Positions 1,383-29,210 of a stretch of DNA of 40,611 nucleotides are shown here, piece after piece. The DNA comes from a virus. The first letter of the stretch is position 1. The number at the start of each line of letters is the position of its first letter. The stretch is from the IMG/VR virus record IMGVR_UViG_3300042922_000416, positions 1-40,611 of that record, one strand, 5' to 3'. The notes beneath the pieces were generated by a model, which did not search any database, was not told where the DNA came from, and saw only the letters and a list, made by a program, of their open reading frames with translations. A program made the translations under genes and the position numbers.

Positions 1383-1627
1383 GTGCCTGGCCCGACACGC
1401 CGGAAGCTGAACGCGACGCACTCATCGCCGTCGTGAAAGACCTCGTCGCCCATCTGGCAGGGGGCCGCGGACCTCTCGGGGCGAAGGTGGAGGGAGCATT
1501 CGAGATCCTGCACCGGATTCCGAGTGACGTGCTTGCGGAGCACACCCGGCGGCAGAAGCTCGCCCGCGAGCGTGAGTGGCTGGAGTACCGACGCAACCTC
1601 GAAGCGTCCCGGGAGGTGCAGTCATGA
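1379..1627 (+). CDS. Hypothetical early protein
   Basis: An 82-residue, mostly helical charged protein, not recognised. It starts with ATG at 1379 in an ATGA overlap and ends in Glu-Val-Gln-Ser, a one-base variant of the recurrent Glu-Val-Arg-Ser junction. Confidence 0.6.
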   Translation: MSAWPDTPEAERDALIAVVKDLVAHLAGGRGPLGAKVEGAFEILHRIPSDVLAEHTRRQKLAREREWLEYRRNLEASREVQS

Positions 1628-1782
1628 GCGCCCGAGGATTCGAAAACGTCCGGGTGTGGCACGACGAGATGCAGCGATACGAGCGCACCGGGCGACTCGA
1701 TGAGGGGCCGTGCTGGTGTGCCGAGTGTGTCGCCATGGAGCTGGATGGCGGAGCCGAGAAGGAACCGGAGGTGCGGTCATGA
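1624..1782 (+). CDS. Small Cys-containing hypothetical protein
   Basis: A 52-residue protein with Cys-Trp-Cys-Ala-Glu-Cys in its centre, possibly a half zinc site. ATG at 1624 overlaps the previous stop (ATGA) with GGAGGTG upstream. It ends in Glu-Pro-Glu-Val-Arg-Ser, as does its downstream neighbour. Confidence 0.55.
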   Translation: MSARGFENVRVWHDEMQRYERTGRLDEGPCWCAECVAMELDGGAEKEPEVRS

Positions 1783-2027
1783 AGGGCCGCGTCACCCGTT
1801 ACTCGGGAGACGACATCGCCGCAGCGTTCGGACGGCCGCTCCCAGCGACACTTTGCGCCGGATGTGGGCACCCGAGGCACAATCACCGACGTGAGGTCAC
1901 CCCCGACCCCGAGGGGCGGCTGTTCCACTCCACCGAAGAGCACTACGAGTGCACTCGTCGCGACCGTCGTCGCAGGGCTGGCGTGTGCCCGTGTGAGGCG
2001 TTCGCAGAACCGGAGGTGCGGTCATGA
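1779..2027 (+). CDS. Small zinc-ribbon-like protein
   Basis: An 82-residue protein with Cys-x2-Cys near residue 27, then a Cys at about residue 59 and Cys-x-Cys near 70, flanked by His and Arg; this suggests one zinc site. ATG at 1779 overlaps the upstream stop. The start and end both lie in near-identical copies of the GAGGTGCGGTCATGA junction. Function unknown. Confidence 0.55.
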   Translation: MKGRVTRYSGDDIAAAFGRPLPATLCAGCGHPRHNHRREVTPDPEGRLFHSTEEHYECTRRDRRRRAGVCPCEAFAEPEVRS

Positions 2028-4595: not shown

Positions 4596-4677
4596 CCTCG
4601 ATTGGTGGAATTGGGATACACGACGCACTCAAAATGCGCTGCCTTTGGGCTTGCAGGTTCGAATCCTGCATCGAGGA
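4596..4677 (+). tRNA. tRNA-Leu(CAA)
   Basis: The acceptor CCTCGAT (4596-4602) pairs perfectly with ATCGAGG (4670-4676), discriminator A4677. The D arm begins TGGTGG as in leucine tRNAs. The anticodon stem is 623-627/635-639 (four pairs plus one mismatch) with loop CTCAAAA, anticodon CAA (4630-4632), reading TTG. There is a short GCC/GGC class II variable arm, and a T arm GCAGG-TTCGAAT-CCTGC. CCA is not encoded. It may support translation of the TTG-containing late genes. Confidence 0.9.
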
Positions 4678-4746
4678 CGGTGCCGCCGGTTGGAATAGAC
4701 CGGGACGGGCCAACTCCTGCGGGGAGTGATCACCCTCGCAGAGTCG

Positions 4747-4807: not shown

Positions 4808-4905
4808 GCAACACAACTGAACACGCCGGAGCCGGGTAAAAGCCGCGGCCGGCCCCAATAACTCCACAGTTGCCCAATGACCTGATGGCCCGAAAGGGGC
4901 GCGTG

Positions 4906-6228
4906 GTGTCTACAGTCTCCCCACTCTTCAACGACCCCAACTTCGTCGCCGACCTGCTCAACACCCACATCTCGTCCGGCAGGATCGAAACGAAATGGGG
5001 CATCGCGAAATCCGCCGTGAACAAATGGCGTCGCCGAGTCCGCCAAGGGCAAGCGTTGCCGTCCACCGGCACCCCCGCACACCGTGTCGGTGCTGCGACC
5101 GCCGCCGACGACATGCAACGCGACTCCGAAGACCGCATCCTGTCCGCCACCCGCATGGCCGCAACAGCGTGGGGTGCCGCTGAATGGCGTGAATTCATTC
5201 GCGCGCACGGCCAAGACCCCGACACGGTGACGTTCCGGTACGGTGTCACGTCTAACCCGACCGGCGGGTACTGGAACAAACTCCTCGACGTCCGCCCGAT
5301 CGCCGGCAACCCGGCTGATGTTCTCAAGGACGAGGACGTTGAAGCGGCGCAGAAACGCGTCAGAGGTTGGAAGCTCCCGACGCGCACACCCGGCACCGGC
5401 CTGGGCGCGCCCGTCGCAGCCGTCCTCAACCTTGCCGACATGCAGCTCGGGAAGTCCGAGGGTGGCGGCATCAAAGCAACCGAACAACGCCTGTACGACG
5501 GCCTCGACAACTTCCGCCGTTGGGTAGACCGGCAACGCAAAGGCGGCCGGAACATCAACGAAGTCGTCATCGTCAACAACGGCGACCCGTTCGAAGGCAT
5601 CGCCGGTAACTACGCCTCCCAAACACACACCGTTCAGCGTGGACTCAGGGGGCAGCAGAACCTCGTGCTGGACGTGTGGTTGGCGTACGCGCGGGAACTG
5701 TACCCCGAATTCGACAAGGGCCAGTTCGTGTCCGTCCTCTGCAACCACACCGAGTACGGGCGTCAGGGCGGTGCGAAGAACTCGATCACATCCGACTCGG
5801 ATAGTGGTGGTGCGTTCCTCGCAGAAACGTTGCAACGCATCCTCGCTGGACGTGCCGAGTTCGACCATGTTGAGTTCACCATCCCGCACGACGAAATGAA
5901 CGTCTACACGGAAATCGCAGGCGTCCAGGCCGGCTTCAACCACGGCCACAAAATCCCAGGGTCCGACGCAACCGGGTTCGAAAAATGGCTCAACGGTCAA
6001 ATCCGAGGCGACGAACGTGCATACCGGGCGAAAGTCTGGTTCACCGCACACAAACACAACTTCCAAGCGTGGGACCTCGGTTCCGCTTCAGTGTTCTCGT
6101 GCCCCTCATGCGACGGTGGCTCGAAGTGGTTGCGTGACACGACCGGCAAGTTCTCGAACTCGGGAATCTTCGCCGTCCTCGTCGGTGAACACGAACGCCT
6201 CGGCTGGTCAGACCCGGCGTTCCTCTGA
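4906..6228 (+). CDS. Metallophosphoesterase with N-terminal helix-turn-helix
   Basis: About 440 residues. GTG at 4906 is preferred because AAAGGGG ends 6 bases upstream; GTG 4903 and ATG 4870 or 4885 are alternatives. Residues about 24-48 look like a helix-turn-helix (Lys-Trp-Gly-Ile-Ala-Lys-Ser-Ala-Val-Asn-Lys-Trp). From residue 170 the calcineurin-like phosphoesterase motifs follow in order: Asp-Met-Gln-Leu-Gly-Lys (178-183), Asn-Gly-Asp-Pro-Phe-Glu-Gly (225-231), Cys-Asn-His-Thr-Glu (279-283), Asn-His-Gly-His-Lys (345-349) and Ala-His-Lys-His (381-384). These bind two metal ions. The first-motif His is replaced by Gln180. Such HTH-phosphoesterase fusions occur in actinophages; a DNA-directed nuclease or phosphatase role is inference. 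It stands just after the tRNA-like element. Confidence 0.75.
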   Translation: MSTVSPLFNDPNFVADLLNTHISSGRIETKWGIAKSAVNKWRRRVRQGQALPSTGTPAHRVGAATAADDMQRDSEDRILSATRMAATAWGAAEWREFIRAHGQDPDTVTFRYGVTSNPTGGYWNKLLDVRPIAGNPADVLKDEDVEAAQKRVRGWKLPTRTPGTGLGAPVAAVLNLADMQLGKSEGGGIKATEQRLYDGLDNFRRWVDRQRKGGRNINEVVIVNNGDPFEGIAGNYASQTHTVQRGLRGQQNLVLDVWLAYARELYPEFDKGQFVSVLCNHTEYGRQGGAKNSITSDSDSGGAFLAETLQRILAGRAEFDHVEFTIPHDEMNVYTEIAGVQAGFNHGHKIPGSDATGFEKWLNGQIRGDERAYRAKVWFTAHKHNFQAWDLGSASVFSCPSCDGGSKWLRDTTGKFSNSGIFAVLVGEHERLGWSDPAFL

Positions 6229-6231
6229 AAC

Positions 6232-6320
6232 GTGAGTGCGCGGTGGCTCCCTTAATCGTCAAGGCGGACCTTGAGCATCGGACGGGGCAACCGTCTATAC
6301 AGGGGGCGAAACGCACTCAC
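6232..6320 (+). ncRNA. Candidate multihelix RNA B
   Basis: Starting 4 bases after the phosphoesterase stop: P1 of 9 bp, GTGAGTGCG (6232-6240) with CGCACTCAC (6312-6320); P2 of 7 bp, GCTCCCT (6246-6252) with AGGGGGC (6301-6307, one G-U); P3 TCAAGG-CGGA-CCTTGA (6259-6274); P4 GACGG-GGCAA-CCGTC (6281-6295). P1 and P2 are separated by an internal loop CGGTG/GAAA. All four helices are nested and leave short single-stranded joints, the architecture of a folded RNA and not of a terminator (no U-run). No ORF fills 6229-6376. Family not recognised. Confidence 0.5.
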
Positions 6321-6376
6321 CCAACTCGTAGATTCGCAGCCACGTTTTCGTAGGTTTGTCACGCTTGGAGACGGTG

Positions 6377-6484
6377 ATGTATGGGCCAGACGAACGGTTA
6401 GAACGCCGCTACAACACGGTACTCGACGGCGACGACTGGTTGCTGCCCGACCCGGACAACGACCATGTGGGCGAGGACACCTGA
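6377..6484 (+). CDS. 35-residue acidic protein
   Basis: A small acidic ORF starting at ATG 6377, with GGAG at 6367-6370, and overlapping the next ATG by one base (TGATG). It contains Asp-Gly-Asp-Asp-Trp and Asp-Pro-Asp-Asn-Asp. Function unknown; supported by spacing and ribosome site only. Confidence 0.5.
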   Translation: MYGPDERLERRYNTVLDGDDWLLPDPDNDHVGEDT

Positions 6485-7856: not shown

Positions 7857-8126
7857 ATGGCTGCCCCACGCAACAAAGACCTAGCCAAGAAATGGCGGGC
7901 ACGAATACGCCGCACCAAACCCGCATGCCACATCTGCGGACAACCCATCAACTACGAAGCCGAATGGCTAGACCCCAACAGCTTCGTCATCGACCACGTC
8001 ATCCCCTTGGCCAAGGGCGGAGAAGACGCATGGCACAACGTGCGAGCCGCACACAGAGCATGCAACTCCAAGAAACGCGCACGGGTAGTGGCTCCGATCA
8101 TTCGACGATCCGGATCACTCGGCTGA
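7857..8126 (+). CDS. HNH endonuclease
   Basis: 89 residues, basic. It has the full HNH signature: Cys24-x2-Cys27, Asp46-His47 before Pro50-Leu51, Lys-Gly-Gly, Asn61, His66 and Cys69-Asn70. The HNH nucleases that sit beside phage terminases (as in HK97 gp74) assist cos cleavage and packaging. GGGAGG lies 7 bases before ATG 7857. It lies just before the endonuclease VII and terminase genes. Confidence 0.9.
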   Translation: MAAPRNKDLAKKWRARIRRTKPACHICGQPINYEAEWLDPNSFVIDHVIPLAKGGEDAWHNVRAAHRACNSKKRARVVAPIIRRSGSLG

Positions 8127-26744: not shown

Positions 26745-28646
26745 ATGGCGGACCTGATTCCGGCTACTGATGCATCGTCCTTTCGGTGGCCGCTCAAGGC
26801 GCGGGAGCGTCTTGCTTTGGACTTGGCGGACCCGGGTACGCCCGAGGGCGCGGTCCTTGCTGACGCAGTTGCTACTCAGGTGATTGCGCCGGATTCGCCT
26901 GCGGCTGAGGCGATTGCTGCGGCGACTTCGACGGCGGTCTCTGCTGCCGCTGATGCTGCTGCCGCGGTCGCTTCGCTCCCGGAACACTTGGATACCGAGG
27001 ATGGCGCTATCGCCGCGCTTGTCGGCTCGACCAGCTCGCAGACAAGAGCAGCACTGTCAGACACGTACGCAGCTGCCAGGACCGTCGACATGCTCGCCGA
27101 GGGAGCCTCCGCAGACGGCATCACCGACGACCTCGCGGTCTTCACCGCGGCGCGAACGAAGGCCGGCGCGAAGGGCATCGTTCACTTCCCGGCGAAAAAG
27201 GGTGCGGCCTCCACCACATATTTCCTGGCCGGCGTGCGCCCTGACCTCTCCGGAACGCAGATCACGACCGATCCCACGGTTGTACTCAAGATGGACGCCT
27301 CGCCGAACCTCAAGACGTTCGGCTTCCTGACGGATGTGACGGTCGAGAACACGGCGCACAGCTCGACCCTTCGGAAGCGGCATGCGCTCGATCTGCCGGT
27401 GGCGATCGGGATGGCCGCGAACGTAAGGCCGCAGCAGGTGGACCTCACTGCGATCGACCTCACCACGTGGGAGTCGCTGGCGGTCGAGGGCTCGGCCCTG
27501 GGTGTTCGCACGTTCGGCACGTTCACCGGCACGGTGACAGCCGATCAGGTTTCGTGGGCGAGCGCGTTTGCGGCGGGCACGCAGGGCAAGTTCGTCGTCC
27601 CGCAGCTCGGCGCACTCTATGAGGCTTGTGTGGAGACGACGAAGGCGGGCTCGAACACGAACAACGATACGGCGGGGATCATGATTCTCTCGGCCGACAA
27701 CCACAGCGTCGATGTCCGCATGCCTCGGAGCGGCGTGAGCCCGCTCATCATCGGTTCCGCGGACTTCGCGACCGGTGTTGGCGGGACTGGAATCACGCTT
27801 ACGCTTCCTGGCCAGTACGGGCTCCCTTCGACGTCGGGCGGCGTGAACGTTGGTGTTCGGCTGTTGGGCGCGCGCGAGGCCGAGTTCTACGCGAACGGAC
27901 GCATGTTCTACCGCCTGCGCACGCTCAAGGACATCGCCAAGGTTGGATTCGTGGCCGCGTTCCCGGATTCGAATCTCAAGACGATTCACCACGCGGTGTC
28001 CTACGGCACGAAGTTCGTGCCTACGAGCGCTCGGCGCTGCACGGTATCGATCGTCGGCGACTCGATCAGCTACGGCGCATGGACGCCGATCACCTACGGT
28101 GACCTGCTCCCGATTGCGTTCGCCGGCCTCCCCGGCGGTGGCGGCGTAAACGTGCGGCAGAACATCGCCGTCTCCGGGAGCACCGCGCAGCAGTGGGGCA
28201 CCGCGGGCGGCACGCAAGACATCGCCACGAAATCGTTCGCCGGTGATGACTACGTTCTCGTGATGCTCGGGACGAACGATGGCCAGGCACTCCGAACCGT
28301 CGCTGACTACCTGACGTACGTGGCGTACATCGCTGCGAAGATCATTGCGGACGGGTCCCGGCCAGTGTTCGGTCAGTTCCCGCTCTGGTGGTCTACCGGA
28401 GCGACCGGTGTTCCCGGAGCGCCAGGCGTGCAGAACTCCGGACGTGCGGCGTCGTTGCGAGCAGCCCTCACGAGCTTCTGCGCGAAGAACGGGTACCCGC
28501 TCGCGCTCGTCCAGGAAGCGATCGGCGACGTGTACGAGTGGCTTCCTGACAATATCCACCCGGACGAGCGCGGGCAGGCAGCGGTGGCTCGCGCGTTCGC
28601 TCAGGCGATTGCTAGGGATCGGATGCGTCAGCTTCCTGCCGGGTAG
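26745..28646 (+). CDS. Tail spike/fibre with SGNH (GDSL) hydrolase domain
   Basis: 633 residues; AAGGGG before ATG 26745. An N-terminal Ala-rich helical part (1-95) is followed by the Ala-Asp-Gly-Ile-Thr-Asp-Asp spike entry motif (about 126-132), a beta-rich middle, and from about residue 430 an SGNH hydrolase: Val-Gly-Asp-Ser-Ile-Ser (block I), Val-Ser-Gly-Ser-Thr (block II Gly), Leu-Gly-Thr-Asn-Asp-Gly (about 505-510, block III), Asp-Asn-Ile-His-Pro-Asp-Glu (about 600-606, catalytic Asp and His). It probably deacylates a cell-surface glycan during adsorption. Codon choice changes to C/G-ending at about 27.03 kb, inside the gene, which points to a swapped C-terminal module. Confidence 0.85.
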   Translation: MADLIPATDASSFRWPLKARERLALDLADPGTPEGAVLADAVATQVIAPDSPAAEAIAAATSTAVSAAADAAAAVASLPEHLDTEDGAIAALVGSTSSQTRAALSDTYAAARTVDMLAEGASADGITDDLAVFTAARTKAGAKGIVHFPAKKGAASTTYFLAGVRPDLSGTQITTDPTVVLKMDASPNLKTFGFLTDVTVENTAHSSTLRKRHALDLPVAIGMAANVRPQQVDLTAIDLTTWESLAVEGSALGVRTFGTFTGTVTADQVSWASAFAAGTQGKFVVPQLGALYEACVETTKAGSNTNNDTAGIMILSADNHSVDVRMPRSGVSPLIIGSADFATGVGGTGITLTLPGQYGLPSTSGGVNVGVRLLGAREAEFYANGRMFYRLRTLKDIAKVGFVAAFPDSNLKTIHHAVSYGTKFVPTSARRCTVSIVGDSISYGAWTPITYGDLLPIAFAGLPGGGGVNVRQNIAVSGSTAQQWGTAGGTQDIATKSFAGDDYVLVMLGTNDGQALRTVADYLTYVAYIAAKIIADGSRPVFGQFPLWWSTGATGVPGAPGVQNSGRAASLRAALTSFCAKNGYPLALVQEAIGDVYEWLPDNIHPDERGQAAVARAFAQAIARDRMRQLPAG

Positions 28647-28647
28647 C

Positions 28648-28812
28648 TCACCATGCGGCGCGGTTCATGTACGCGGTGGCGCACTCGTCGCTGCACTCGA
28701 AGATCCGCGCGGAGCGGGCTGCGGGCTCCATCACCCGTCCGCACTCGCGGCACCGGCGGGCACGCGGTTCGTGCAACCAGCGCGCGAGCCGTACGATCGG
28801 AGTCTCACCCAT
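28648..28812 (-). CDS. Small zinc-binding protein
   Basis: 54 residues from ATG 28812. Cys-Arg-Glu-Cys (about 21-24) and Cys-Ser-Asp-Glu-Cys (about 40-44) form a likely four-Cys zinc site in a basic protein. It is the last leftward gene and converges with the spike gene. Start without strong ribosome site; a longer form from 28941 is less likely as it would run through the terminator hairpin. Confidence 0.5.
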   Translation of the reverse strand: MGETPIVRLARWLHEPRARRCRECGRVMEPAARSARIFECSDECATAYMNRAAW

Positions 28813-28853
28813 GCGAGCAACGTAGCACTTGTCTGCACATAGCCCGACGCGCG

Positions 28854-28905
28854 AGCGCCCCCTCTCACCACCGTGAAGTGATGAGAGGGGGCGCTTCTGT
28901 CGTTT
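28854..28905 (+). terminator. Strong terminator ending the late block
   Basis: A perfect 14-bp stem: AGCGCCCCCTCTCA (28854-28867) with TGAGAGGGGGCGCT (28882-28895), then TCTGTCGTTT. It stands between converging late and lysogeny transcripts. Confidence 0.9.
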
Positions 28906-28916
28906 CCAGTGCGTTT

Positions 28917-29210
28917 CTAGTGACCGTTTCCAGTAGGCCACGGGTTGGGTGCGAATCCTCCCGGCCCATGCGAACCGATGTACGCCGTGTGCACCTTCTC
29001 CACCGCAACCCGGAGCGTCGGGAACACGCCCACGAGATCGTCATGCAACCATGCCCGGTAGAACCGTTCCCCACCCTCTGACACGATCCGCACCGTCCCG
29101 TACGCGCCGCGCTGATCCGTCAACGTCCAAACGCCCGGAGTGCTCTCTACACAATCCAGCAACGGATGCCACACACCCGCATACAACCACGCACCACCCA
29201 CAAGCTGCAC
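28917..29210 (-). CDS. Hypothetical protein downstream of HTH gene
   Basis: 97 residues if GTG 29210 is used, two bases after the upstream stop; GTG 29255 gives 112 residues with a GAGGCGG site and is an alternative. Trp/Tyr-rich (Gly-Ala-Trp-Leu-Tyr-Ala-Gly-Val-Trp) with a beta-strand pattern and one Cys. No family recognised. Cotranscribed with the HTH gene. Confidence 0.55.
   Translation of the reverse strand: MQLVGGAWLYAGVWHPLLDCVESTPGVWTLTDQRGAYGTVRIVSEGGERFYRAWLHDDLVGVFPTLRVAVEKVHTAYIGSHGPGGFAPNPWPTGNGH

Follow-up and report, generated by a model that had tools for sequence, protein, structure and literature searches.

Does the short sequence directly behind the phosphoesterase gene of this phage specify a structured RNA and, if so, what kind of RNA is it? 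The window, by which we mean the whole stretch of DNA that was analyzed, is a 40.6-kb IMG/VR siphovirus record with genes for a terminase, portal, protease, scaffold, major head protein and tape measure. An earlier note on this sequence had proposed a four-helix RNA at 6232-6320 on the plus strand, and a closed four-helix fold is what we find at these positions (hereafter the W-RNA).

Fold and position of the W-RNA

The W-RNA starts 3 nt past the stop codon (6226-6228) of the phosphoesterase gene, directly behind that gene as had been described, and its helices have the sizes proposed for them: 9 bp in P1, 6-7 bp in P2, 6 bp in P3 and 6 bp in P4 (five pairs plus one G-U). The parts of the RNA and its upstream neighbors are listed below; remarks on conservation refer to an alignment with two homologues, L361 and L389.

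4596-4678 (+): tRNA-Leu (CAA), ~200 nt upstream of the phosphoesterase gene
4870-6228 (+): exonuclease-type metallophosphoesterase (PHROG 284), directly upstream; matches a phage exonuclease family
6232-6320 (+): structured RNA core (W-RNA); fold z -4.4, homologues L361 and L389, covariation
6232-6240 (+): P1 5' strand; compensated rewriting in both homologues, 15 bp in L361
6241-6245 (+): J1/2, CGGUG; GGUG invariant in the alignment
6246-6251 (+): P2 5' strand, GCUCCC; the same in the three sequences
6252-6258 (+): J2/3, UUAAUCG; L361 and L389 insert an extra short hairpin here
6259-6274 (+): P3 hairpin, UCAAGG-CGGA-CCUUGA (strands 6259-6264 and 6269-6274, CGGA loop); three compensated pairs
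6275-6279 (+): J3/4, GCAUC; invariant
6280-6296 (+): P4 hairpin, GGACGG-GGCAA-CCGUCU (strands 6280-6285 and 6291-6296); paired in all three, sequence and length differ
6297-6301 (+): J4/2, AUACA; invariant
6302-6307 (+): P2 3' strand, GGGGGC; invariant
6308-6311 (+): J2/1, GAAA; GAA invariant
6312-6320 (+): P1 3' strand; fold and covariation

The sequence bears out that there is no U-run at the W-RNA, and a terminator scan gave no site at 6232-6320; an intrinsic terminator is not supported. The absence of an ORF holds to the extent that no convincing gene is present here; mechanical ORFs do overlap the element. Readthrough of the phosphoesterase stop codon was also rejected, as the same frame meets another stop eight codons later.

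The plus-strand fold has a minimum free energy of -42.3 kcal/mol (z -4.43), and none of 200 shuffles was as stable. However, folding energy does not agree with the description of this element as the strongest noncoding RNA signal in the window, since about two dozen sites are equal or stronger: a scan of both strands with GC correction places the W-RNA at approximately the 0.7th percentile, and ~25 other sites match or exceed its folding once GC content is allowed for. The 181 nt from 6200 to 6380, taken as a whole, are unremarkable (z -0.26), and the minus strand at the W-RNA folds nearly as well as the plus strand, for which reason the energy does not indicate the strand. Folding energy alone is weak evidence for the W-RNA in this GC-rich window. 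An alternative fold is also possible, in which the 5' strand of P1 (6228-6240) would pair with 6335-6347 (13 nt, 85% complementary). The strongest fold in the window is elsewhere, at 28812-28921, just past a gene for a 633-residue protein (26745-28646), with -53.4 kcal/mol for 28812-28900 on the minus strand and a z of -8 for 28832-28921 on the plus strand.

Homologues and covariation

A covariance model was made from the window sequence alone (R1), and a search of other phages with the sequence and this model, which the earlier note had suggested, produced two homologues, both of them in related actinophage contigs. The homologue at L361 164-258 (+), a contig among relatives fetched through the terminase, matched R1 with 44.6 bits (E 6.2e-7 over 667 kb), and that at L389 1501-1596 (-), found by scanning whole records from related phages with R1, with 44.8 bits (E 1.8e-8 within its record). 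The W-RNA is thereby known from three sequences, that of the window and those of two metagenome samples, which all belong to a narrow phage lineage.

The phosphoesterase has relatives in IMG/VR contigs and also in Agromyces, Microcella and Arthrobacter prophages. The W-RNA was absent from the slots downstream of the phosphoesterase in these relatives and from the records searched whole with R1, and the window's closest relatives by phosphoesterase are among those that do not carry it. Several other candidates were rejected as chance matches. Matches in IMG/VR to DNA patterns built on P1/P2 or on the junctions were not scored by R1, the best blastn matches in phages and plasmids proved on inspection to be chance matches to P3, and two R1 matches of 33-35 bits, from 396 order-level and 395 class-level genomes, fall within coding genes on the opposite strand. 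We found no description of the W-RNA in the literature.

The absence of covariation in homologues would, according to the earlier note, have spoken against an RNA at this locus. Over the pairs that were counted (the inner six of P1, P2, P3 and two of P4), 10 of the 20 are changed on both sides, all 60 pair cells of the three sequences hold standard pairs, and none of 500 shuffles reached any of these measures; when the partners were slid as a control, pairing fell to 27-53%. The W-RNA thus displays the compensatory changes above controls that characterize a conserved structured RNA. P1 is completely rewritten among the three sequences with pairing retained, being GUGAGUGCG/CGCACUCAC in the window, a 15-bp helix in L361 and CCGAGC/GCUCGG in L389. 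P1, P3 and P4 vary, and P2 and the junctions (GGUG, CU-AA, UCGU, AGCAUC, AUACA and GAA) are invariant; the runs common to the three sequences are GGUGGCUCCCU-AA, UCGU, GGCG-ACC, AGCAUC and AUACAGGGGGCGAA. Invariant junctions and an invariant P2 among variable stems are the behavior of RNAs that have a tertiary fold or a bound partner.

The homologues were retrieved with a model that itself rewards pairing. This bias is countered by the conserved unpaired runs and by the P1 of L361, which at 15 bp exceeds the 9 bp that R1 rewards and so lies partly outside the model. We infer that the W-RNA is very probably a real RNA.

HNH genes, known RNA classes and a second RNA

Both homologues adjoin a small ORF of the HNH type. 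The W-RNA of L361 starts 3 nt behind a small ORF and is followed by an HNH_3 ORF (253-669, 138 residues, identified by Pfam) whose start lies at or within the 3' strand of the RNA. A relative (L382) has the same two flanking genes ~26 nt apart and no HNH gene, from which we conclude that the RNA and HNH gene of L361 together constitute an insertion of ~500 nt. In L389 the HNH-type ORF (1572-2006, minus strand, 145 residues) is upstream and its last codons overlap the RNA; it is called HNH from relatives annotated as HNH endonucleases, as Pfam reports nothing for it. Another relative (L216) has the same flanks as L389 with neither the HNH gene nor the RNA. The insertions carrying RNA and HNH gene interrupt an otherwise compact gene array and are missing in sister phages, and the HNH proteins of L361 and L389 represent separate families, encoded one downstream and the other upstream of the RNA.

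In the mycobacteriophages ArcherS7 and ET08, the frame for a relative of the L389 HNH protein extends into a tRNA-Trp gene, and in another phage (L006) a tRNA-Trp gene is located behind the phosphoesterase. An HNH-like frame at 401-814 of the ET08 sequence (L408), between tRNA-Pro and tRNA-Trp, is unannotated there and in similar Bxz1-type records. No HNH gene adjoins the W-RNA of the window, in which the nearest is at 7857-8126. That the HNH families and their sides differ, that the tRNA-Trp loci offer parallels and that the window copy is free of HNH leads us to view the W-RNA as an RNA gene beside which HNH genes become established, and the window copy as one that stands alone. The link, seen in two cases, is suggestive; this region is rich in HNH genes, and chance could account in part for the two adjacencies.

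The element could not be placed in a known family when first noticed, and we found no Rfam match for the window W-RNA at gathering score or at E ≤ 10, nor any Rfam family at a meaningful score for the L361 and L389 copies. By architecture the closest known system is HEARO, the guide RNA of IscB/IsrB-type nucleases. Copies without the ORF are a feature that the two have in common. Like the W-RNA homologues, HEARO (RF02033) links an RNA structure to an HNH-encoding ORF (PMC9755519). However, the RF02033 covariance model matches neither the window W-RNA nor its homologues; no large RuvC-HNH partner adjoins it, the ORFs here (138 and 145 residues) having little room for RuvC; and the partners of the W-RNA come from two small HNH families with no fixed order of RNA and HNH gene. 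The tRNA-HNH loci of ArcherS7 and ET08 are similar in that there, too, a relative of the L389 HNH gene extends into a structured RNA gene at the corresponding position, but the W-RNA is not a tRNA, neither ARAGORN nor Rfam detecting a tRNA or tmRNA cloverleaf at it. Self-cleaving ribozymes and RAGATH motifs share with it a small size, a conserved junction and phage nuclease genes nearby, whereas the W-RNA matches no Rfam ribozyme family at E ≤ 10. As far as these comparisons show, it lies outside the HEARO, tRNA and ribozyme families and is filed under none.

Sister phages have another structured RNA that is absent from Rfam, in the same slot behind the phosphoesterase or behind a DnaQ/PolB-exonuclease-like gene. 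Ten records scanned whole have one copy each, at the following positions:

L002 3907-4003: second RNA
L003 890-981: second RNA
L004 3907-4002: second RNA
L008 3904-3993: second RNA
L129 3407-3490: second RNA (the copy in the whole-record scan was a weaker match than this one)
L284 2802-2899: second RNA
L285 2981-3075: second RNA
L287 3072-3165: second RNA
L288 2816-2908: second RNA
L289 2897-2992: second RNA

Among 12 distinct sequences of the second RNA, 97.4% of cells are paired and both partners are changed in 12 of 19 pairs; an Rfam search of L002-L008 gave nothing at this RNA. The second RNA (covariance models R2/R3) resembles the W-RNA in its slot, closed P1, inner P2, hairpin P3 and strong covariation, but its core is unlike the W-RNA core, and membership of the W-RNA in this family was rejected because it has no R3 score even with filters off. 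A single record, that behind L285 and L389, carries both RNAs, so that one genome can hold the two. The second RNA may merit separate study.

Three further observations concern this slot and its surroundings. Behind the phosphoesterase/exonuclease gene, L128 and L290 have the sequence CCUCCCACCUCCCACGC...GGCGUCGAGGCAUGGUGGGGA, possibly a diverged second RNA, noted by eye and with no R3 score. A terminase relative has a weak but significant R3 match (L339 1810-1897, E 1.4e-5). Long near-perfect hairpins are present just downstream of the second RNA in L004, L005, L008, L243, L260 and L265, and these vary among otherwise near-identical phages, as if swapped as cassettes.

Possible roles of the W-RNA

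What we propose, at about even odds, is that the W-RNA is a rare RNA of ~90-110 nt, either a gene of its own or one domain within a longer transcript, that is absent from Rfam and belongs to a lineage of siphoviruses of Actinobacteria. It would be transcribed as part of a phage operon; once RNases trim the transcript, the long P1 would close and protect the domain, and the invariant core would bind a phage or host factor. HNH homing endonuclease genes would settle at the W-RNA in the way they settle at tRNA genes, the RNA of the window being a copy that lacks an HNH neighbor. We put the chances at about even that the element is such a domain, part of an operon transcript, with a tertiary fold, a P1 that serves in protection or processing, and a binding partner.

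The most substantial alternative, possible yet doubtful, is a cis-acting operon element, which would either stabilize or terminate the transcript at the 3' end of the upstream gene or switch the translation of the gene that follows. In both the window and L361 the RNA begins 3 nt past a stop codon, hairpins fill this slot in other phages (that of L136 is a canonical intrinsic terminator), and in L361 the P2 strand GGGGG could serve as a ribosome-binding site for the HNH gene, whose GTG start is overlapped by P1. Yet terminators need no invariant junctions and the U-run is absent, the neighbors differ among the three copies, with the HNH gene upstream in L389, and in the window no start codon follows closely behind the RNA. 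(The L136 terminator, downstream of 3412, is GGGAGCCC-TTCG-GGGCTCCCTTTCTTTTT.) A riboswitch or protein-binding leader for the downstream small genes is very unlikely, for while the conservation of the junctions is aptamer-like, the downstream genes are unrelated among the three phages and no Rfam riboswitch matches. That the fold arose by chance in a GC-rich intergenic stretch is scarcely credible: ~0.7% of window positions do fold equally well, but the two homologues and ten compensated pairs refute this unless both contigs are artefacts.

An invariant multi-helix junction within variable stems is also the pattern of natural ribozymes, and the location of the W-RNA near phage nuclease genes would suit a self-cleaving or catalytic RNA in which the junction forms the active site and cleaves the operon transcript past the end of the upstream gene. 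We consider this unlikely from the sequences compared, since searches with known ribozyme models gave no match at E ≤ 10, no pseudoknot was identified, and P1 shuts both ends as a long perfect helix. It is similarly improbable that the W-RNA belongs to a new functional class of phage RNA that is either catalytic or paired with small HNH endonucleases, for example a ribozyme or the RNA cofactor of a mobile homing element, of which the window would have an ORF-less copy.

The W-RNA represents a covariation-supported family that Rfam lacks, and the actinophages that carry it are poorly sampled as a group. Its joining with HNH genes in two independent insertions provides a testable case of RNA genes and homing endonucleases travelling together, and the three sequences with their invariant junction are well-defined material for cleavage, probing and pull-down experiments.
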